A stretch of 64,000 nt of DNA from Aquipseudomonas alcaligenes NBRC 14159 (GTDB lineage: Bacteria; Pseudomonadota; Gammaproteobacteria; Pseudomonadales; Pseudomonadaceae): assembly GCF_000467105.1 (NCBI RefSeq), contig NZ_BATI01000033.1, positions 1-64,000 on the forward strand. The letters are read 5' to 3'. Both the position numbers and the translations under genes were made by a program. Under the pieces are notes generated by a model that was not told the DNA's origin, searched no databases, and worked only from the letters and a program-made list of their open reading frames with translations. Below, in pieces: positions 1 through 9,958 of the stretch (position 1 is its first letter; each line of letters starts with the position of its first letter).

Positions 1-538
1 AGCCCCTGCGGATCTCAGCCAATAGCTCGGCAATCTGGTCTGTCGTCAGCCAGGACAGTTCACGCTCCTGGATCTTCAACGGCTTCACCAGGGACAGCGG
101 ATTGTCGTAGTCGATGACGCCCAGGCCGCGCAGTTCGTTGTAGACGGCACGCAGATACCCAAGCTCATTATTCAGAGTCTTCGGCGACGTGCCCGCCCCT
201 AACCTGATCCGGCGATACTGTGCGTAGGTCTGCGGGTCCAACCTGATGGCAGGAGGGTCGCGCAGGCACTTGGCCAGGGCTTCAAGCTTGATGCGGCGAC
301 GCTCGCCGTCTCTCAGCGAATGACCGTGTAAATCGAACCAGAGGCCGACCAACTCACCGAGACGGCGAAGGTCTTTCGGCTTGGGTGCCCAATCCGGGTT
401 TTGTGCAAATCTGGCTCTGCAGGTCGCTTCGAATCGCTGGGCTTCACCCTTGGTCTTGAGGGTCTTGCGGAAGCGCTTGCCTTTGACGGGCTCGACGTCG
501 ACCTTCCAACGTCCGTCCGGTAGCTGTTCGATTGCCAT
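1..538 (-). CDS. Phage-type tyrosine integrase, N-terminal part (3' end outside window)
   Basis: The complement of 538 down to 1 is open from an ATG and runs off the window edge, giving about 179 residues starting MAIEQLPDGRWKVDVEP. The start is an Arm-type DNA-binding domain, a short beta sheet with a basic KGKRFRKTLKTKGEA stretch. It is followed by a SAM-like core-binding domain (TSPKTLNNELGYLRAVYNEL...). The catalytic R-H-R-Y half would lie beyond position 1 and cannot be seen. The ATG directly abuts the TAG of the replication initiator gene (539-541), so the two are translationally coupled. The rep-int order matches the int end of Pf-type inoviruses of Pseudomonas (established knowledge). 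It presumably catalyses site-specific integration into a tRNA-type site to the left. Confidence 0.9.
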   Translation of the reverse strand, partial: MAIEQLPDGRWKVDVEPVKGKRFRKTLKTKGEAQRFEATCRARFAQNPDWAPKPKDLRRLGELVGLWFDLHGHSLRDGERRRIKLEALAKCLRDPPAIRLDPQTYAQYRRIRLGAGTSPKTLNNELGYLRAVYNELRGLGVIDYDNPLSLVKPLKIQERELSWLTTDQIAELLAEIRRG

Positions 539-1816
539 CTATACAGCTCGCCCCCACCTGACGTGGCGTTCCTCCAGTAGCCCCTTGATGTGCTTATAGA
601 GCTCGCGCTCGCTCATTTCCTTAGCGGCGTAGTGCTCCCGGATGACGGGCCAACAGTCCCATTGTTTTAGGGTGGAGAACGCCTTTTTTACGCCCACTCG
701 CTCCCTAGCCAGCAGGCTTACGAAGTTTCCCAGGAACAGCTCCACGTTCTTACCGGAGAAGCCTCGGGCAGTCTTGTAGTGGCGCTTGTACTCGGTGGCA
801 TCGATCAGGGAATCGACCGGCACATCGACACGCGCATCGTCACGCATCAGGGTCCATACCGGCTCGAAATAGCCAGGGCGGGAGATGAACTTGAACTGCC
901 GCAGGCCATAGCGCCACAGGCCGTCCAGATGCCCTGCGAAGGTCGCATAGCAGTCGGTTTCAATGGCCTTGCCGGTGGCCAGATCGATGGAGCCGCTGGC
1001 GAATTGCTGGATGATGGAGTGGTGGTAACGCAGTTCCACACGCCACACATCCTGGGCCGGGTTGTAGTTGTCCGGGTCGCCCTCGTCGAAGCTGTCGCGG
1101 CGCTTCCAGACGCCTTCCCAGAAGTCGAGTTTGTCAGTGGCCTTGGCCTGCTCGGTCTTGTTGTAAATGCACAGTTGCACGCCAGCAGCGGAACCGAACA
1201 TGGAGGTTTCACCGCGGCCGTAGACGCTGGATTTGGTGGCCCACTCGATCTGGTTGATGCCGCTGATGTCGCGGTGAGTGCGCGCCCGGCAGTGCATACG
1301 GGCGACCAGATCGGCAGGTGGTTGCCAGCCCTGTACGTCCAGGGCCAGATGCACGGCGCACTGGTTGCGCTCGATGTGGCTCAGCACGTGGCTGGCGTAA
1401 TAGTCCATGCGCTCTTGCAGGCGCTCGGGGCTCAGGGCGTCGATGGCATGGGGTGACACTTCGATCTTGAGGTGGGGACCGATCACGTCAGACTTGCAGT
1501 TGAAGTTCTTCACCAGCAGGACAAAGCCCAGGTCGGCGTTCTGCAGCTTGTACTGGTAGCCGGAGTCCTTGCTGACACGGCCGGCATGCCAGCGCTCCCC
1601 TGCGAAATCGACGATGGTGCCGGGCTTGTCGAACATGCCCAGGATGTGGGGCAGGATCAGCCCCCGGTACAGCTGGCGGACCGTATCGACCGCGCAGCGC
1701 AGCAGGCGGACGTTCGACAGGTCGGTCAGCCGTGCATTGCCCGGGTCCACGAAGATTCGTCCCTTCGGGCTCTCTTCACCGTTCAGGTTGAGGCGAACGT
1801 GGTCTTTCATCTTCAT
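539..1816 (-). CDS. Pf-like phage replication initiation protein (rolling-circle type)
   Basis: A 425-residue protein of the replication initiation factor class found in Pf-type filamentous phages. Visible hallmarks are the VHLALDVQGW stretch around residues 155-164, typical of the conserved Asp-containing strand, and the VQLCIYNKTEQAK block, the lYdKxxE-like motif of this family. A conserved ELRYHH segment follows. The role is nicking of the double-stranded replicative form to start plus-strand synthesis; this comes from the family and is not shown here. Start: ATG at 1816 with a GGAGAA-type Shine-Dalgarno just upstream on the complement. It lies directly before the integrase gene with no spacer. 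In complete Pf phages a Zot-type ATPase gene precedes rep; none is seen here. Confidence 0.85.
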   Translation of the reverse strand: MKMKDHVRLNLNGEESPKGRIFVDPGNARLTDLSNVRLLRCAVDTVRQLYRGLILPHILGMFDKPGTIVDFAGERWHAGRVSKDSGYQYKLQNADLGFVLLVKNFNCKSDVIGPHLKIEVSPHAIDALSPERLQERMDYYASHVLSHIERNQCAVHLALDVQGWQPPADLVARMHCRARTHRDISGINQIEWATKSSVYGRGETSMFGSAAGVQLCIYNKTEQAKATDKLDFWEGVWKRRDSFDEGDPDNYNPAQDVWRVELRYHHSIIQQFASGSIDLATGKAIETDCYATFAGHLDGLWRYGLRQFKFISRPGYFEPVWTLMRDDARVDVPVDSLIDATEYKRHYKTARGFSGKNVELFLGNFVSLLARERVGVKKAFSTLKQWDCWPVIREHYAAKEMSERELYKHIKGLLEERHVRWGRAV

Positions 1817-1884
1817 TGGGTTTCTCCATCAATGACCAGTAATTGCTGTTTCGGAAACTGACTATCTGACGTGTTACAGGGACG

Positions 1885-2070
1885 TCAGGCGGCGGCCGGC
1901 GCGCGCGTGGTCGCTCTGTACCGAGCCGCTCCATCGCGCGCGCCGTCTGCCGCTTCGTAGAGCCATATGGTTGGTTGAATACTGTTGGGTAACTGGGTTG
2001 CGGCTTGGCCGATCCAGTGAGCAAGGGAGAGCAACAGAAGGAGGATTGCGAGGGGATTGAGGCCGTCCAT
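1885..2070 (-). CDS. Small phage membrane protein, unknown function
   Basis: A 61-residue frame beginning MDGLNPLAILLLLLSLAHWI. It is supported by a Shine-Dalgarno (GGAG, 8 nt before the ATG at 2070). Residues 5-20 form one hydrophobic membrane-spanning stretch, and the C-terminal half is Ala/Arg-rich with no recognised motif. It sits between the paralogous pair and rep, where complete Pf phages carry small membrane and coat genes. It lacks the longer N-terminal signal peptide expected of a Pf major coat protein, so I do not call it a coat protein. It could also be a regulatory or anchoring peptide. Moderate confidence that it is a gene, low on function. Confidence 0.5.
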   Translation of the reverse strand: MDGLNPLAILLLLLSLAHWIGQAATQLPNSIQPTIWLYEAADGARDGAARYRATTRAPAAA

Positions 2071-2163
2071 TTCGAACGCTCCAGGGATGGGGTGGTTGCC
2101 ATAGCCTGCAGGCCATCAGAAGACGGGAAGTAAAGCGCGGGAGGAATCAGCTGAAATGCACAC

Positions 2164-2312
2164 CAAGGGCGCCGCCCTTGTCATCCCGCTCTTGCCGCCG
2201 AGGGCTCGGGAGCGTGGGGTGGTGAAGCTACCCCACACTCCCCGGCAGAGGCTGTTCATGTTTGTGCAGGGTCAAGGGTGCGCTGCGCCCGTGCTTCCGT
2301 TCTTCGGAACGG
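2164..2312. other. Cluster of four hairpins; candidate phage replication origin or packaging signal
   Basis: Four inverted repeats follow each other. CAAGGGC-GCC-GCCCTTG spans 2164-2180 and CCGAG-GG-CTCGG spans 2198-2209. A 13-bp stem with one mismatch spans 2208-2242 (inner arms GTGGGGT 2214-2220 and ACCCCAC 2230-2236). CCGTTC-TTCG-GAACGG spans 2297-2312 and overlaps the 3' part of the upstream gene. None has a convincing T-run, so a terminator explains them poorly. Clustered hairpins are typical of origins and packaging signals of single-stranded DNA phages (general knowledge). The functional call is inference. Confidence 0.4.
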
Positions 2313-2661
2313 TGGAGCTGTTCCGACGAGCCGGGAGCGCGGCCCCTGACCTCTCTGGATAGGTTCGGGTCATACGGCCCAGTACGTTGCCGGAACTGTG
2401 CCGGTCGCGGTGCCGTATCGCCCGAATGGTGCGGATGTTGTAGAAGCAAAGCTCGGTCGGAAAATCAGCCTTTCCATCCAGGGGCATCGTCAGGAAGTAG
2501 CCGGCCTCGTGGTAAACGCCCTCCATCGGCAGGGCCATGCCGACGATGTGGAAGCAGCGCCACAGCGGTTCCGGGTCTTGGTACCAGATCATTTCAACGA
2601 GTACGGTGGCGCCCATGTACTGCGCCGCATTGGCAGCGGTGACGACATTGCAGCTATGCAT
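2272..2661 (-). CDS. Phage protein of unknown function, paralogue of the upstream gene
   Basis: A 129-residue protein starting [20 protein letters not shown]. Residues 10-80 align with the neighbouring gene at 2654-2989. The shared pattern is G-x2-V-x-VE-x2-W-x3-DPEP-x-WR, then V-x-G-x2-LP-x-EGV and a final IR-x-IR-x-IR. The last 45 residues are not shared and lie over a hairpin, so they may be a recent extension. The ATG at 2661 overlaps the preceding stop (2654-2656) by 8 nt, so translation is coupled. No known domain is recognised. Position between the Xis-like genes and rep suggests an early or regulatory phage function rather than a structural one. Confidence 0.65.
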
Positions 2662-2989
2662 GGCGGCGCTCTCCTTCCTTGAATCCGGGCTGGCTCTGGA
2701 ACATCGGAGGGATCGGCAAGCGCCTCAGAAAACTGCGCGCTTCGCTGCGAATCGACCGGATAGAACGGATATCCGAGAGATACACGTCCAGAGGGTGTTC
2801 ATCGCCGGGATTCTTCATCAGCAGGAACGCCTGCTCATGAACGCCTTCGACGGGCAACACCAAGCCGATCACATAGCCGGCACGCCAGCACGGCTCGGGA
2901 TCGTCGTCCCAGACCAGTTCGACCACCACCGGCTCCCCCAGGAAGCCCACAGCGGAGAGCACATCCAGACCAGCAGGCTTACTAGACAT
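2654..2989 (-). CDS. Phage protein of unknown function, paralogue of the downstream gene
   Basis: A 111-residue protein starting MSSKPAGLDVLSAVGFLGEP. The ATG at 2989 lies inside the end of the upstream gene (stop 2982-2984), an 8-nt overlap identical in style to the overlap with the next gene. That chain of coupled starts decides the start against the longer upstream frame. The core (VVVELVWDDDPEPCWRAGYV and LPVEGV, then IRSIRSIR) is clearly homologous to the product of 2272-2661, so the two arose by tandem duplication. It has no signal peptide or membrane segment. The family is not recognised. Confidence 0.65.
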   Translation of the reverse strand: MSSKPAGLDVLSAVGFLGEPVVVELVWDDDPEPCWRAGYVIGLVLPVEGVHEQAFLLMKNPGDEHPLDVYLSDIRSIRSIRSEARSFLRRLPIPPMFQSQPGFKEGERRHA

Positions 2990-3194
2990 GGCTGTAGTCC
3001 CCCTCTTTGAACTGGGTCTTGCCCTTGGCCATGTCTTCACGCAGGCGGGCGAGGTTAACCATGCGGAAGTCCGCTAGCCGCATGCTCGGGATGGTGCCGG
3101 TGTCGATCCAGTTGATTGCCTCTTCCACCGACACACCGCTCATTTCGGCGAAGGTCTTCACGCTGCACAGGTCCAGGCTTTGGTCTTTGCTCAT
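2982..3194 (-). CDS. Small Xis/MerR-like DNA-binding protein (second of a pair)
   Basis: About 70 residues from the ATG at 3194, which forms an ATGA overlap with the TGA of the upstream gene. A GTG at 3203 is an alternative start; GGGAG lies 8 nt before the ATG and favours the latter. The sequence VKTFAEMSGVSVEEAINWIDTG followed by RMVNLARL is a winged helix-turn-helix of the excisionase/AlpA type. It resembles its neighbour, sharing W-I-D-x-G and RMVN/RVMVN with hydrophobic helices at matching positions. In Pf phages an Xis-type protein in this position controls excision and replication (established knowledge). Whether this copy is an Xis or a second regulator cannot be told. Confidence 0.65.
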   Translation of the reverse strand: MSKDQSLDLCSVKTFAEMSGVSVEEAINWIDTGTIPSMRLADFRMVNLARLREDMAKGKTQFKEGDYSHV

Positions 3195-3412
3195 AGGGTC
3201 CACTCCCGCTCCAGAAGGTGGCGGGTCAGAAGCGCCACGTTGACCATCACGCGCTTACCTACCTTCTCGGTGGGCAAGTAGCCGCGATCAATCCAGGTAC
3301 GCACGACGATGGGTTCGTCACCCATGCCGATCCATTCGGCGAACCTCTGCCAAGGCATCAAAGGCGGGGCACCGTGCAGCTTTTGGGGGTCAAGACCTTC
3401 AGGTGGTAGCAT
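3191..3412 (-). CDS. Xis-like DNA-binding protein (first of a pair)
   Basis: A 73-residue protein and the first gene of the leftward operon. The ATG at 3412 has GGAG 7 nt upstream. The body MPWQRFAEWIGMGDEPIVVRT, then IDRGYLPTEKVGKRVMVN, reads as a winged helix-turn-helix of the excisionase type, with the WIDRGYLP turn and a basic KVGKR recognition wing. It resembles Xis proteins of Pf-type phages and is divergent from the repressor gene. The likely role is promoting excision and switching on rep. The paired smaller paralogue follows immediately. Confidence 0.7.
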   Translation of the reverse strand: MLPPEGLDPQKLHGAPPLMPWQRFAEWIGMGDEPIVVRTWIDRGYLPTEKVGKRVMVNVALLTRHLLEREWTL

Positions 3413-3440
3413 CCATGAACTCCGCTATATCCAGCTTTAT

Positions 3441-3520
3441 CTTGCATTAAATGCCTTACATTATTTGCAAGGTAGAGACAAAATATAAGCCAGCCACCAC
3501 ATAGAAACCACCACTATGTG
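3441..3520. promoter_or_regulatory. Divergent phage control region with two palindromic operator candidates
   Basis: Between the leftward Xis-like operon (start 3412) and the rightward repressor gene (start 3544). Palindrome A spans 3441-3471 with CTTGCA at the left end and TGCAAG at the right; 10 of the 13 outer positions pair across the centre. Palindrome B spans 3498-3520 as CACATAG, a 9-nt spacer and CTATGTG, a perfect 7-bp repeat. The location is that expected for C-repressor binding and the lytic promoter of a temperate phage. I could not place -35/-10 boxes with confidence. Confidence 0.55.
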
Positions 3521-3543
3521 CAAGCTTTTTAGATGCTTTAGGA

Positions 3544-3813
3544 ATGATAAGAGAAAGATTGATATCCATTTGGGATAAAGAACAGCTTTCGGCCCCTAAG
3601 CTTGAGAAGCTAACCGGCATAGACCGCAGCAGCTGGTATCACCTGAGAAATGGAAAGCGGCGTGCCAACGAACAGGACATAGAGGCCATCGTGCAGATGT
3701 TTCCTCAGTACGCTTTTTGGATTGCTAGCGGGCAAACAGCACCCGAGATTGGACAGACAAGCCCTGACCCTGACGAGGCCAACCGAAACTTGAGCCAACC
3801 GAACGCGGGATAG
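3544..3813 (+). CDS. Cro/C1-type phage repressor
   Basis: An 89-residue protein, MIRERLISIWDKEQLSAPKLEK... The helix-turn-helix runs from about residue 16 to 46 (APKLEKLTGIDRSSWYHLRN then GKRRANEQDI). The FPQYAFWIASGQTAPEIGQTSP tail is a pattern seen in small Pseudomonas phage regulators of the Pf repressor C class. It is divergent from the Xis-like operon across two palindromes, as a lysogeny repressor would be. The start is weakly supported: AGGA sits only one base before the ATG, so a low-efficiency or leaderless start is possible. It presumably keeps the Xis-rep operon off. Confidence 0.75.
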   Translation: MIRERLISIWDKEQLSAPKLEKLTGIDRSSWYHLRNGKRRANEQDIEAIVQMFPQYAFWIASGQTAPEIGQTSPDPDEANRNLSQPNAG

Positions 3814-3981
3814 CGCTCAAGCAAGGAATAGCTAGGCGCAGGCATGCCCGGCAAAAGGTGGATTCGTAAGGCGTGCTCAGAAAACAGAAATGGCCGGCCT
3901 ACTTACAGCGCGACAAGTGCCGTGCCTGCCATTTAGTTAAAACACATAAAGCGGCATCGCCTTAAACAAGGGCACGCACCA

Positions 3982-5310
3982 ATGAACTCAGAAAAAGCCA
4001 TAAACAACATATTAAAATCAGAGCTTGAGATAACATTTAAGACATTAAAAATAATATCTCAAGACAAACAAAACCCGAAAAAATACATTGCCAACGGAAA
4101 AATAACACAAGACAAAAATGGCCAACTAATATTGGAGGCAATATGGAGCCCCCCAAAAGGAAAACCTCTTGAGCCAAACTGGGGAATGGACTACATAGAG
4201 CCAGGCCAAATCATCCCAAAAGAACACTATTTCAAAATCGAAGGAATAAGCGTAGAAGGCCATAAGTGGATAGCGACAGACATCCACCTAAGCACAAATT
4301 ACTACTTCCCAACAAGCACCATAGTTTTTAAAGGGCAAATACCCGACATTTTTCAAAAAGGAAAAACGGCTCACCCGCCGACGGGAAACACTCGACTAAT
4401 AGCCTGCGAAGTAAAAGACCTAAAGATTCCAACCAATGAATATAACGAGAAAGAACAGAAAAGAAACATTACCAACGTCACTGTTGCCGACAAAAAATGC
4501 CAGATTAGAATTCACGAAAACCATGTGACCTTTCTGATAAAAAGCCCCAAACAAATTACAAATGAAAAAGCACAATCAATTGTGCATGCAATTGAACTAG
4601 CTACCGGCAAGAATCTTCAAAAAATATACGATCACAGCATAACCCCAAAGAGCTTCTCTATAACGCTCTATTCCCGCCCTGCCCCCGAAGAGCTGTGGAG
4701 CATCCTGCCACCTCTGAACCGCCACCACAAAATAGATGAGCTTGAAGAAATAACAAATAAACTACACAAGCTCTCTCAAGAAAAAAGAAAGGCAATAATA
4801 TGGTTCTGGAAAGAGATCGGCATATCAAGCCAAGCCGGGATAGAACCCTTCATGAAATCAATATGCTCAAACATAGAAGGGATGGTAGATTTCTTTTACA
4901 GCAAATATAAAGTAGCTGACAGCTCCTTTGAGAAAGAGTGCCTGCAAGCACTAGATGTCATCTCAAAAATAGAGTCATCGATATCCCCAAGAGCCTTTCA
5001 AAGAATCTCAGGGAACTTGAAATCTGCAGGTTCGCCATCCGTAAAAAATGCGTTTTATAAGCTACTAGGCAACAAAGCAGACAACTGGAACAGTCTCAGA
5101 CATAAAGCTCTTCATGGCAGCCATCAAAAGTTATTCAATGACACTCAAAAGCTTTTCGACCTTACATATAGCTGCCTATATATATTTTACGAACTAACAT
5201 TAGAAGCCATAGGCCATAGAAATAAAATAATTGACTACTCAACAAGAGGCTATCCAGAAATACCCCCTCTTATTTCTCAAATTAAAGCCGGCCTCCAAAG
5301 CCAGAAATAA
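3982..5310 (+). CDS. AT-rich cargo protein with C-terminal HEPN-like R-x4-H motif; candidate anti-phage effector
   Basis: A 442-residue cytoplasmic protein with no signal peptide or membrane segment. The C-terminal part contains NSLRHKALHG with R373 and H378. This fits the HEPN ribonuclease signature R-x4-6-H with a polar residue after the Arg, inside a helical region (DTQKLFDLTYSCLYIFYELT follows). The N-terminal 170 residues look beta-rich, with many W/Y/G turns, and may be a sensing domain. The layout resembles ApeA-like and other HEPN defence proteins, but I cannot assign the family. The gene is far more AT-rich than its surroundings (one line at 4021-4080 is 17 of 60 G+C) and rich in AAA/ATA codons, so it was acquired from elsewhere. 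It occupies the cargo position beyond the repressor, where Pf prophages carry accessory or defence genes. Confidence 0.6.
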   Translation: MNSEKAINNILKSELEITFKTLKIISQDKQNPKKYIANGKITQDKNGQLILEAIWSPPKGKPLEPNWGMDYIEPGQIIPKEHYFKIEGISVEGHKWIATDIHLSTNYYFPTSTIVFKGQIPDIFQKGKTAHPPTGNTRLIACEVKDLKIPTNEYNEKEQKRNITNVTVADKKCQIRIHENHVTFLIKSPKQITNEKAQSIVHAIELATGKNLQKIYDHSITPKSFSITLYSRPAPEELWSILPPLNRHHKIDELEEITNKLHKLSQEKRKAIIWFWKEIGISSQAGIEPFMKSICSNIEGMVDFFYSKYKVADSSFEKECLQALDVISKIESSISPRAFQRISGNLKSAGSPSVKNAFYKLLGNKADNWNSLRHKALHGSHQKLFNDTQKLFDLTYSCLYIFYELTLEAIGHRNKIIDYSTRGYPEIPPLISQIKAGLQSQK

Positions 5311-5415
5311 TCTTGCCCGAGCCGTAGCTACTAGGGCCAGTGACCATAAAGTGTCACAGAAGAAGCAAAGCTATGCAGCTCAATGCGGCAGCACGTGTGC
5401 AGCGAGGTCAGCACT

Positions 5416-5477
5416 GCCGGGATATGCAGAGCATTGCAAGCGCGACAGGATGGGTTCAAATCCTCCCGGCTCCGGCA
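5416..5477 (+). other. tRNA-like 3' end; candidate right attachment site of the phage element
   Basis: GGTTCAAATCC (5453-5463) is a textbook T-loop sequence. AGGAT (5447-5451) can pair with ATCCT (5460-5464), and directly after it CCCGGC (5465-5470) can pair with GCCGGG (5416-5421), imitating a T-arm stacked on an acceptor stem. Only 25 nt separate the 5' arm from the T-arm, so the anticodon arm is missing and this is not a functional tRNA. No encoded CCA is seen. Duplicated tRNA 3' ends are the usual scar of Pf-type integration (established knowledge). The matching left copy would lie outside the window. Confidence 0.45.
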
Positions 5478-5485
5478 GATCACCC

Positions 5486-5522
5486 CCCTGATTTTCCTGC
5501 CGAAGATCAGGGTTTTTCTTTT
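5486..5522 (+). terminator. Rho-independent terminator at the element's right edge
   Basis: CCCTGAT (5486-5492) and ATCAGGG (5506-5512) form a 7-bp stem with a 13-nt loop, followed by TTTTTCTTTT. It lies just downstream of the tRNA-like sequence, consistent with being the original terminator of the tRNA-type gene used as the integration site. Confidence 0.75.
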
Positions 5523-6175
5523 CTGATCAAAAAATCGACAACCGCCCACCGCAACGTGTTATGGTGCCGCCCCCCGCAAGGTGATAGGCGCAGATGGCAA
5601 CGGCCATCCTGAGCCATGCGGCAATGCAGTCCTTCCCGGACCTGGCATGTATCTGGAACACCACTCCACTTGAGCACACGTTCTGCCCCCCTGAGATCAG
5701 GAGCAGATGCACTGTGCAGCATTGATGCAAGCCGCCCCTCCCCTGCAGTGCCTTGTTCGACAAGGTTCGTGCAGCTGTTCTGCTTGATCTCAATCGTCCC
5801 TACTGGCGTCACCTCCTGTCGAGACAACTAGCCGCCGCTGAACCAGCTTGCGAACGCATGCCTGGCTTGCCGGTCATAACGCATGCGCGCCCAGGCACAA
5901 CGTCGGCGCGCCCGACATGAGCATTCATCATGAGTACACCCATCATCTGCCGTACCTATCGGCAACCCGTCAATCAATGCAAATGCTTCCGCTGCCGCCC
6001 GCAGGGCGTGAAGCTCAGTGAACGCGCAGGAACCGGCCTCGCGGCCGCGCCGCACGGCTGAAGCGCGCCCGGACAGCCCTGTATCAGCACAGGCTGCAGA
6101 GCGCCGGTGGCAGCGGTATGCTCTGCGCGTACCGGTCAGCCCGGACGTTTTTGCAGATCGACCGGGAGACGGTTC

Positions 6176-7603
6176 GTGCGGTATCTGTTGTTGATGTTGG
6201 GCCTGCTCTGCGCCCACGCCTGGGGTGATGTGGCGCTGTCACCGGAGCAGCAGGCCTATGTGCGCGCCCACCCCGAAATCAGTATGTGTGTCGACCCGGA
6301 CTGGGCGCCGTTCGAGCGCCTCAATGCCCGGGGCGAGCATGAAGGCATCGCCGCCGACCTGCTGCGTCTGCTGGCCAGCCGCGCCGGGCTGACGCTGCGT
6401 ATCCACGTCACACCGGACTGGGATGCCTCGCTGGCCGCTTCCAAGGCTGGCGAGTGTCAGTTGCTCGGCTTTCTCAACCAGAGCCCGGACCGCGACGCCT
6501 GGCTGCTGTTCACCCAGCCCTACTTCACCGACGCCAATGTGCTGATCAGCCGCGAGGAGCACCCCAGCGTCGCCAGCCTGGGCGACTTCGTCGGCGCCCG
6601 CATCGCCCTGCCCTCGGGTACCTCGGTCGAGGAAAAGCTGCGCCGCCTCTATCCCGGCCTGCAGTTCGTGATCGTCGGCAGCGAGGCGGAGGCCTAGCGC
6701 CTGGTCAACGAGCGCCAGGCCGAGTTCACCCTGCGCTCGCTGGTGATGGCCGCCGACACCATCAAGAACGAGGGCTGGTTCAACCTGAAGATCGCCGGCC
6801 AGGTGCCGGAACTGGACAACCTGTTCCGCATCGGCGTGCTGCGCTCGGAGCCGATGCTGCGCGACATCCTCGATCAGGCCATCGCCACGCTCACCCCGGA
6901 CGAGGTCAACGCCATCGTCAATCGCTACGTGGCGGTACGGGTGGAGACGCCGGTCGACTATCGACTGCTGCTGCAGGTGGTCGCTGTGTTCGTGCTGATC
7001 CTGGCCAGCAACCTGTTCTGGGTGATACGCCTGCGCCGGGCGAACCGCAAGCTGGCGCGGCAGGCGGTCACGGACGCGCTGACCGGCCTGGCCAACCGCA
7101 AGCAGCTCAACCGGTTCAGCCAGGGCACCGTCGAAACCGCGCGCCGCCATCATCGGCCGCTGGCGGTGGTGCTGTTCGACATCGACCACTTCAAGGTGGT
7201 GAACGATCAGCACGGCCATCTGGTCGGCGACCAGGTGCTGTGCGACATCGCCGCGCTGCTGGCGCGCGCCGTGCGCCAGGGCGACTGCCTGGGGCGCTGG
7301 GGCGGCGAGGAGTTTCTGCTGATCTGCCCGGAAACCCGTGGCGAGCAGGCGCTGCAACTGGCCGAGCGCATCCTGGCGCAGGCGCGGAGCCTGCCGCTGG
7401 CTACCGGCAAGCCGTGCACGCTGAGTGCGGGGGTTGCCCAGCTCGGCGCCGGGGACAGCGTCAACGACCTGCTGCAGCGCGCCGACGAGGCGCTCTATCA
7501 GGCCAAGACGCAGGGGCGTGACCGTGCGAGCCTGGCACAGCGCTCAGAACAGCCCGAGCTGGCGCTCGATCAGCGCAGCGAAGTCGTCACCCACGAAGGG
7601 TAG
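6176..7603 (+). pseudogene. Periplasmic-sensor diguanylate cyclase interrupted by an in-frame amber codon
   Basis: GTG at 6176 (GGGAGA just upstream) begins a signal peptide, VRYLLLMLGLLCAHAWG. A SBP_bac_3-type periplasmic domain follows (ISMCVDPDWAPFERLN...), then a membrane helix near codons 265-285 (VVAVFVLILASNLFWVI) and a GGDEF domain with intact RWGGEEF (G376-F380). A TAG at 6695-6697, codon 174, breaks the frame; reading continues in the same frame on both sides with family-typical sequence. A single C-to-T change of a CAG codon would explain it. As written, the product ends inside the sensor domain and no cyclase is made unless there is readthrough or internal restart (ATG at 6743). 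The 3' end overlaps the polB end by 60 nt, convergent. Confidence 0.85.
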
Positions 7604-9895
7604 GATGGCGTCCGCCACCGGCCGCAGCTGGCGCTGGATGTAGTGGTCGTAGTCGATGGCCGAGCGCCGGGTTTCCAGCGGCTCGGGGCCGGCAACGGTG
7701 ATCAGGTAGCCGATCCAGGCGCCGCGCCGGTACTGCCGGGGGCGGCCGAGGCGGTCGTTGTGTTCGTCGGCCAGGCGCGCGGCGCGCACATGCGGCGGCA
7801 CATTACGCGGGTAGTCGGTGAGGTTGCGCTTGAGCCGCTTGCGGTACACCAGCAACTCGTCCAGCTCGCCATCCAGGGTGCGCTGCACGTAGTCACGCAC
7901 ATAGTCGCGGTGCGGCTGGCGCGCGAAGATCAGGCGGTACAGCTCCTGCTGGAACTGCTGGGCCAGTGGCGACCAGTCGGTTCGCACCGTTTCCAGGCCC
8001 TTGAACACCATCTCGTCACGCCCGTCGGCACGCCTGACCAGGCCGGCGTAGCGCTTCTTGCTGCCCTCCTCGGCACCCCGCACCGTGGGCATCAGAAAGC
8101 GCAGGTAATGGGTCTCGAACTGCAGCTCCAGGGCGCTGGTCAGCCCCATCTCGGCCTGCAGGTGCTCGCGCCACCACTGGTTTACCCGCTCGACCAGCGC
8201 CCGGCCGACGGCCGTCGCCGCCTCGTTCTCGTGCGCGCGGCCGAGCCAGACGAAGGTGGAGTCGGTGTCGCCATAGATCACCTGGTAGCCCTCGGCCTCG
8301 ATCAGCTCGCGGGTGCGGCGCATGATCTCGTGCCCGCGCAGGGTGATGGACGAGGCCAGGCGCGGGTCGAAGAAGCGGCAGCCGCTGGAGCCGAGCACGC
8401 CGTAGAAGGAATTCATGATGATCTTCAGCGCCTGCGACAGCGCCGCGTTGCCGGCGCGCTTGGCCGCCTCGCGGCCCTGCCAGACGCGCTCGACCATCGC
8501 CGGCAGGGCATGCCGGGTACGAGAGAAGCGCGCGCCACGGAAACCGGCCACCGAATGCGCATCGTCCGGCTCGCGCAGGCCTTCGATCAGCCCGACCGGG
8601 TCGATCAGAAAGGTGCGGATGATCGAGGGGTACAGGCTCTTGTAGTCCAGCACCAGCACCGATTCGTACAGGCCGGGGCGCGAATCCATGACGAAGCCGC
8701 CGGGGCTGCTGTCGCCCTGCATGTCGCCCAGGTTGGGCGCGACGAAGCCCAGGCGGTGCATGGGCGGCAGGTACAGGTGGGTGAAGGCGGCCACCGAGCC
8801 GCCGCTGCGATCGGCCTGCAGGCCGGTGACGGCGGCGCGTTCGAGAAGGAAGTCGATCAGCCGGGTGTGGGCGAAGATGCGCGTGACCAGCTCGCAGTCC
8901 TTGAGGTTGTCGCGGGCCAGGGCCGGCTTGTCCTCGGCGAACATGCGGTTGATCTCGTCCATCCGCTCGTAGGGCGTGTCGATTGCCTTGCCCTCGCCGA
9001 GCAGGCTCTGGGCGACGTTTTCCAGGCTGAACGAAGGGAAGTTCCAGGTCGCCGAGCGCAGTGCCTCGATACCGTCGATGATCAGCCGCCCGGCCGCCTC
9101 GGCGAAGTAGTGGTTGTGGCTGCGATGCTCGCGCCAGTGCAGCTCGCCGCCGTCACGGCCGAGGCGCAGCGGCACCTTGAGCTCGCGGGAGTGGGCCAGC
9201 AGCACGCGCAAGTCGAACTGCACCAGGTTCCAGCCGATGATGGCGTCCGGGTCATGCGCGGCCAGCCAGTCATTCAGCCGCTGCAGCAGCTCGGCGCGGC
9301 TGGCGCAGTAGGTCAGGTCGAAGTCGTCCACCGCCGCGCCTTCGCCGAGCATGTACACCTGGCGCTGGCCGCAACCTTCCACGGCGATGGAATACAGCTC
9401 GCCGCGCTCGCTGGTCTCGATGTCCAGCGAGGCCAGGCGCAGCTGCGGGCGGTAGTCCGGCGCCGGCTTGAGCAGGCCGTTGCACAGCACGCCCTCGGCA
9501 TCCGGCGTGCCGGCAAACAGCACCGGCGCGGTGATGAAGCGCTCCATCAGGTAGCGTTCGGGCGGGCGGATGTCGGCCTCGTAGACCTCCACGCCGGCCT
9601 CGCGCAGGCGCTTTTCCAGCTTCAGCAGCTGGCGATAGGAGGCGCAGTACAGGCCGAGCACCGGGCGCTGGTGGAAGTCGCGCAGGCCCAGCTCGCGCAG
9701 CTCCACGCCGCGCTCGCCCTGCAGCAGCGCTTGCGCCTGTGCGCGTTGTTGCAACGGCACGAAGGCCACCGCCGGCTGCGGCGCCAGACGCAGGCGACGC
9801 GGGCCGGCATCCGTGGCCAGCCAGAATTCCACCTCGCTGCCGGCGGCGGTGTCGCGCCAGTGGCGGGTCAGGACGAAGCCCTGCTGTAGATCCAC
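7544..9895 (-). CDS. polB: DNA polymerase II (family B)
   Basis: 783 residues, the usual length for bacterial Pol II. The 3'-5' exonuclease motifs are LASLDIETS (D158, E160) and [11 protein letters not shown] (N223, D228). The polymerase motifs are [13 protein letters not shown] (motif A, D417), [14 protein letters not shown] (motif B, from K491) and [10 protein letters not shown] (motif C, D543, D545). All catalytic residues are present. The enzyme performs replication restart and translesion synthesis after DNA damage (family knowledge). No convincing LexA box was noticed upstream. It converges with the broken cyclase gene and lies 63 nt downstream of kup. Confidence 0.97.
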
Positions 9896-9958
9896 GCGGT
9901 TGTCCCGGAAAACTGTTCTCGGCGCGATTCTACTTGGACCGTCGCGGCGCCGTCCGGG

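Follow-up and report, generated by a model that had tools for sequence, protein, structure and literature searches.

The TLC phage and RS1 of Vibrio cholerae are filamentous satellites that carry replication and regulation genes without a full set of particle genes. They use dif sites, whereas the element described here has a tyrosine integrase of its own and a tmRNA gene as its target. Integrated islands are marked by a restored gene at one end and a displaced fragment of it at the other, and in principle the same holds for this element.

For Pseudomonas aeruginosa, passages of PMC7549136 report that the integrase type of Pf prophages matches their target, and describe a Pf-tmRNA group with a 28-bp att sequence. 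The present element shares with these prophages the target gene, an att core (23 of 28 positions), a tyrosine integrase and an excisionase of the HTH_17 type. The Pf-tmRNA prophages are treated in those passages as having a common structural gene set, whereas neither gene V nor coat nor Zot genes were found in our element. The tmRNA gene, ssrA, is a core defence hotspot in P. aeruginosa according to part of PMC10250203, and part of PMC12595487 describes tmRNA islands with defence genes in P. fluorescens SBW25. As presented there, islands I23, I44 and I55 resemble our element in the tmRNA target, the tyrosine integrase and the lack of self-transfer genes; they also carry defence cargo and one inovirus Gp2-like protein. 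They share a region of about 18 kb with YqaJ and carry AlpA, whereas our element has only 6.3 kb. It can also be likened to the TLC phage and RS1, as parts of PMC4863604 and PMC4523942 describe them, with the use of a helper unproven for the present element. No Pf-derived satellite group of this genus appeared among the papers listed from the open literature, which is weak evidence with subscription papers mostly outside it; the passages on satellites in PMC4523942 and PMC7379572 contain none either.

A displaced tmRNA end at the boundary of the element

The window (the whole 64,000-nucleotide stretch of DNA analysed) corresponds to positions 1-64000 of contig C90 of the Aquipseudomonas alcaligenes genome, here G000; its features are collected in Table 1. 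A preliminary description, made from the sequence alone, had noted an anticodon-less tRNA-like sequence in front of a strong terminator and proposed that it marks an attR site. The T-loop consensus GGTTCAAATCC lies where that description put it, at 5453-5463, with CCCGGCTCC soon downstream. A search of the own genome with the 23-nt core GGGTTCAAATCCTCCCGGCTCCG, allowing at most three mismatches, found two places, the core itself and C113:185292-185314 (two mismatches), and the reversed-pattern control gave 0 matches. At the second place ARAGORN calls an intact ssrA gene (C113:184961-185317) with the tag ANDDNYALAA. The core match and this intact gene identify the tRNA-like scrap as a tmRNA 3' end. 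No exact match was found in a 28-nt search of the genome contigs, and blast of 5300-5540 against phages gave two weak matches.

An anticodon arm is absent from the tRNA-like domain of tmRNA, which accounts for the anticodon-less look of the fragment. The T-arm, described earlier as pairable, is only partly pairable and pairs poorly, since attR consists of element DNA, not of tmRNA, in its left half. No complete tmRNA or tRNA fold with acceptor stem and CCA was found at the fragment; in the whole window ARAGORN reported nothing, and Rfam reported nothing at the gathering threshold and, in the permissive mode, two matches far below the gathering score, neither of them tmRNA.

Compared with ssrA, the att copy in the window has mismatches at positions 12, 22, 23 and 26 of 26, and positions 22 and 23 correspond to the discriminator and the CCA. 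On the same positions eight of the ten other copies are identical to ssrA, the copy in G160 has two substitutions, and that in G151 reads as a 1-nt deletion. The ten aligned att stretches have GGTTCAAATCC(C)CCCGGCTCCACCA in common, and the DNA to the left of it is unrelated in the five displaced copies. The preliminary description expected an identical core at the 3' end of a tRNA or tmRNA gene left of position 1; the core is indeed at a tmRNA gene, beyond the integrase end and on a contig that apparently joins there, and it matches at 22 of 26 positions instead of being identical. The boundary is real, the fragment considered as an RNA is ordinary, and this attR is a further instance of an already known kind.

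Table 1. Features of the inserted element and of its right-hand flank in the window
Feature	Position	Strand	Evidence
Tyrosine integrase, N-terminal 179 residues	1-540	-	remaining part at G000:C113:185705-186151
Pf-type replication initiator (Rep), 425 aa	539-1816	-	phrog_1159, E 4e-202
Conserved site A just upstream of rep	1859-1893	-	13 of 13 full-rep elements including Pf AY324828, 0-5 mismatches
190-bp block conserved with Pf phages, overlapping the PA0719 coding sequence	2160-2351	-	88-89% among 10 matches listed
Hairpin site B	2160-2188	-	12 of 13 elements (not G041)
o129, marker gene of small elements	2272-2661	-	sequence matches
o128, related to o129 (36-38%)	2654-3040	-	sequence matches
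Excisionase-like HTH protein, 73 aa	2982-3203	-	HTH_17, E 0.0027 (below cut-off); Cox-like phrog_575, E 5e-6
Second excisionase-like HTH protein, 73 aa	3191-3412	-	phrog_1864, E 1e-26; phrog_575, E 1.4e-4
Repressor-like HTH protein, divergent	3544-3813	+	phrog_147, E 3e-23
442-aa cargo protein, slot beside attR	3982-5310	+	no Pfam, no PHROG match
GCCGGGA, formerly proposed 5' acceptor partner; element-side sequence	5416-5422	+	pairing at chance level
attR core, displaced and decayed ssrA (tmRNA) 3' end	5450-5477	+	23 of 28 as in the published Pf tmRNA att; 22 of 26 as in intact ssrA
Intrinsic terminator, chromosomal side of attR	5486-5522	+	stem 5486-5512, then TTTTTCTTTT; RNA fold z -3.21
Ancestral ssrA downstream flank	5486-6008	+	76-79% to G013, G304 and G293; in G293 it immediately follows intact ssrA

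The ssrA neighbourhood and the integrase end

An empty site was found in G293: intact ssrA is directly followed there by sequence matching window 5452-6000 at 79% and then by polB, which matches window 7542-9933 at 85%, and no element interrupts this order; a related integrase is present in this genome on another contig. The order in G304 is ssrA, a 13.4-kb Pf-like prophage, a copy of attR and the same flank as in the window. These two orders identify the right flank of the window as the ancestral neighbourhood of ssrA, and 5450-5477 is therefore attR, the att site farther from ssrA in an inserted element of 6.3 kb. By eye, the right-hand terminator looks like the terminators at attL of other elements and also like the flank in G293, and a more complex history is therefore possible for it.

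Two ORFs that share a frame and are separated by a stop occupy the window between the ssrA flank and polB, one with a solute-binding domain (6107-6697) and one with a GGDEF domain (6743-7603); polB comes soon after the flank in G293 and G304. The G013 genome has polB about 195 kb from ssrA, and its copy of the flank is on a different contig, with an ssrA fragment on one side and an integrase on the other. This stretch (locus L078, G013:C41, 9524-12004) contains this ssrA 3' fragment, the flank, an integrase that is intact and, of a Rep gene, just the end; such a remnant shows that the surroundings of ssrA were rearranged in G013.

The integrase gene is divided between two contigs. Its halves align end to end with one intact integrase of G013, residues 1-179 at 89% and residues 178-326 at 93%, and the ends of C113 and C90 share 8 bp. 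The resulting order is ssrA, about 0.4 kb of sequence, the integrase, the contig break and then the window; with the 8 bp counted as an overlap, the length from att to att is 6304 bp. C113 and C90 thus appear to be neighbours, judging by the 8 shared bp and the continuity of the protein and not by reads. The target gene, both att copies, the integrase and the empty site of a relative are all seen in the genome sequences.

A 224-aa ORF lies between ssrA and the integrase in another element of the genus (L079, G013:C43, 5594-6268), and our element has only short ORFs there. The attL end may perhaps hold a second variable slot, as this ORF suggests.

Integrase relatives and choice of target

The G013 integrase was searched against 298 genomes of the genus, the own one included, and matched in 30 of them at E <= 1e-60. 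Identity was at least 65% at 18 places, with the two halves of the own integrase counted once. Thirteen of these, including the own one, have an ssrA 3' end core at a distance of at most about 2.2 kb, and in every case ARAGORN predicts a tmRNA gene (the calls for G167 and G271 being those of loci L120 and L121 at the same places). Two more places (G013:C41 and G161:C25) are beside a diverged copy of the ssrA end; among the remaining three, L153 has no core in its locus and the other two lie outside the loci examined. Seven more distant loci (L156-L162; 54-58%) have tRNA-Ser in three cases, tRNA-Gly in two and neither in two. Six of the 20 integrase loci L143-L162 are without ssrA core, tRNA or tmRNA (L143, L153, L154, L155, L161 and L162); in L154 the ssrA core is just outside the locus, and a diverged copy is near L143 and L155. 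With most relatives of at least 65% identity at ssrA and five of the seven distant loci at tRNA-Ser or tRNA-Gly, the integrase type goes with the target. Judged by the ssrA neighbourhood of its relatives, the own integrase is of the tmRNA type, in agreement with the att core.

Gene content of the element

The gene order of the element is the same as in Pf AY324828. Its Rep is of the Pf type, as expected for a Pf-tmRNA prophage, with 54-78% to Pf phages among the matches listed that cover at least 97%; the match to Rep_trans (E 0.0027) is below the Pfam cut-off. No match to o128 was found in phage records.

Positions 1-6500 of the window gave no match to PA0720 (gene V) through PA0726 of Pf AY324828, to Zot, DUF2523 and CoaA of G304 or to three secretins, with limited sensitivity of such queries, since those of Pf AY324828 also miss the Zot and coat genes in the full-size elements of G304 and G041, and with ORFs of 60-80 aa, among which a coat protein could hide, outside the search. 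Within the same limit of query sensitivity, the element has the layout of a satellite: no particle genes were found, and replication and regulation genes stand in a recurring arrangement.

Small elements in the genus

The o129 gene was found in 12 of the 298 genomes, the own one included, at 15 main loci; the count excludes seven more rows, which are related genes in the neighbourhood. Not all 15 loci are at ssrA. The gap between the integrase and o129 is 1534-1802 bp at every one of them, compared with 5850 bp from PA0719 to the integrase in Pf AY324828. In 15 of 15 cases the gap contains a Rep match (in three pieces in G067). Strict exclusiveness of o129 to small elements was considered and dropped, as the phage record PfAC09 matches it at 36% over 81%.

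Besides the own element and G304, ten ssrA elements were compared, and the comparison of the full layout covers the seven small ones, the own one included; the other six are G013:C43, G133, G242, G151, G167 and G271. They have 6.7-8.8 kb in the four with both ends, and G013:C43 and G167 run to contig ends. G133 and G242 have no separate o128 and no match to the own repressor, and an Arc-type protein is present in G133 instead. The larger ssrA elements, in G041, G160, G054 and G237, have 10.8-14.0 kb. A Zot domain is found in G304, a Zot match in G041 and a secretin in G160, G054 and G237; the last three have no match with the Zot queries from G304 or Pf and are called full-size without being proven phages, Pfam having covered only part of their ORFs. 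These counts do not include G261, G013:C41 and the two stretches of G161, which are incomplete elements or remnants. The G151 genome alone has three small elements of the o129 type (contig C1), and two of these, at different sites, have equal scores.

Candidate cis-acting sites

Two conserved sites were found by scans that had no chance control and that allowed up to six mismatches for site B. Site A (Table 1), a candidate replication origin, is absent from four remnant stretches. Site B and the 190-bp block form a candidate cis element that may act as a packaging signal. The idea that the block must be cis-acting because small elements read it in a frame other than that of PA0719 fell: the PA0719-like frame is kept, and residues 20-102 of PA0719 match in 7 of 7 small elements and at 14 of 14 o129 loci. 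Cis and coding roles of the block are inseparable for this reason. Site B is also present without a PA0719 match in G304, G160, G054 and G237, which favours a cis role for it. Covariation in the hairpins of the block is not above that of shuffles (157 of 500 shuffles reach the percentage paired and 233 of 500 the number of both-side changes), and the DNA fold of the block has a z of -2.28 in the window and +0.42 in Pf AY324828.

Cargo genes beside attR

The slot beside attR holds defence systems in several relatives: PDC-M53A/B in G133, an AriAB-like ATPase in G242 and PDC-S31 in G151, where two other cargo ORFs were scanned and had no PADLOC match. The cargo of G167 is a Mrr-type nuclease without a PADLOC match, and G271 has two larger cargo proteins without Pfam or PADLOC matches. 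The Pf-like prophage of G304 carries a 1017-aa NACHT protein between the repressor-like gene and attR (L132, contig C16, 6303-9356). The own 442-aa protein has weak PADLOC scores (E 0.0036 and 0.0043), a match at 21% in one other genome among the 298, one plasmid match, also at 21%, and none in phages. A defence role for it would be a guess from its position.

Discussion

A 6.3-kb Pf-like element has almost certainly integrated into the 3' end of ssrA by means of its tyrosine integrase, with the displaced end as attR. We infer the recombination itself, its exact crossover point and the cause of the decay of attR. The ssrA end (attB) would have recombined with the copy carried by the element (attP) through the element's integrase, which would leave a complete tmRNA gene at the integrase end (attL). 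The old ssrA 3' end would be pushed to the far side of the element and become attR, with the old chromosomal terminator behind it. Lying outside a working gene, the displaced copy would then mutate, its CCA end included.

Two other explanations concern the fragment itself. The preliminary description suggested that it could make a small stable RNA mimicking tRNA; in such an RNA GCCGGG would form the 5' strand of the acceptor, and the terminator would supply the 3' end. A 7-nt complement is present (GCCGGGA at 5416-5422 with TCCCGGC at 5464-5470) and a real, strong terminator follows directly, as described, its z value computed on 5474-5525 folded as RNA; but pairing of at least 7 nt is also reached by 406 of 5000 shuffled sequences and by 243 of 5000 55-mers drawn at random from the window, which is chance level, and by inspection it is out of register with the acceptor stem of tmRNA. 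Only the terminator stands out in the folding of this stretch, folds of 67 nt (z -1.01) and 82 nt (z 0.12) being unremarkable. No promoter-like site was found in 5280-5600, neither Rfam nor ARAGORN gave a match, and the upstream half of the fragment is unrelated in four other aligned copies. We rejected this RNA, which is extremely improbable, on the grounds of chance pairing, folding and conservation. It is also very unlikely that the fragment was left by a separate insertion of greater age or by a duplication of ssrA. The four substitutions in its 26-nt core, more than in most other copies compared, would suit such an origin, but the sequence to its left reads as element up to the contig start, that to its right is the ancestral ssrA flank, and the integrase and ssrA are at the other end.

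As to its nature, the integrated element looks, from its sequence, like a Pf-derived satellite. It could instead be no more than a Pf prophage whose particle genes decayed by chance, outside any satellite group. Its attR is decayed, and there are remnants, for example G013:C41, where the last 112 residues are all that is left of Rep. Against decay by chance stands the same compact spacing with a Rep match at all 15 o129 loci in 12 genomes, and we regard this alternative as rather unlikely. We tentatively propose a recurring group of putative Pf-derived satellites in the genus, a reading that is possible on the comparison of these loci. Its members would have their own Rep, integrase, excisionase-like and repressor genes and candidate Pf cis sites (origin and packaging signal), with o129 and o128 in place of the particle-gene block. 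They would be inserted in ssrA or elsewhere, would have a variable slot at attR often filled with anti-phage defence genes, and would be packaged by resident Pf phages.

As evidence of integration at a tmRNA gene the attR boundary is routine, and it does away with a misleading hint of an RNA that mimics tRNA. Once the two ends of the small element are fixed, a recurrent layout comes into view: Pf genes for replication and integration, no block of particle genes, and a cargo slot that is occupied by defence genes in several relatives. If packaging by a helper is true, defence genes would travel from host to host with filamentous phages, inside particles that the elements do not encode, and surveys that look for inoviruses by the Zot gene would have missed such elements.
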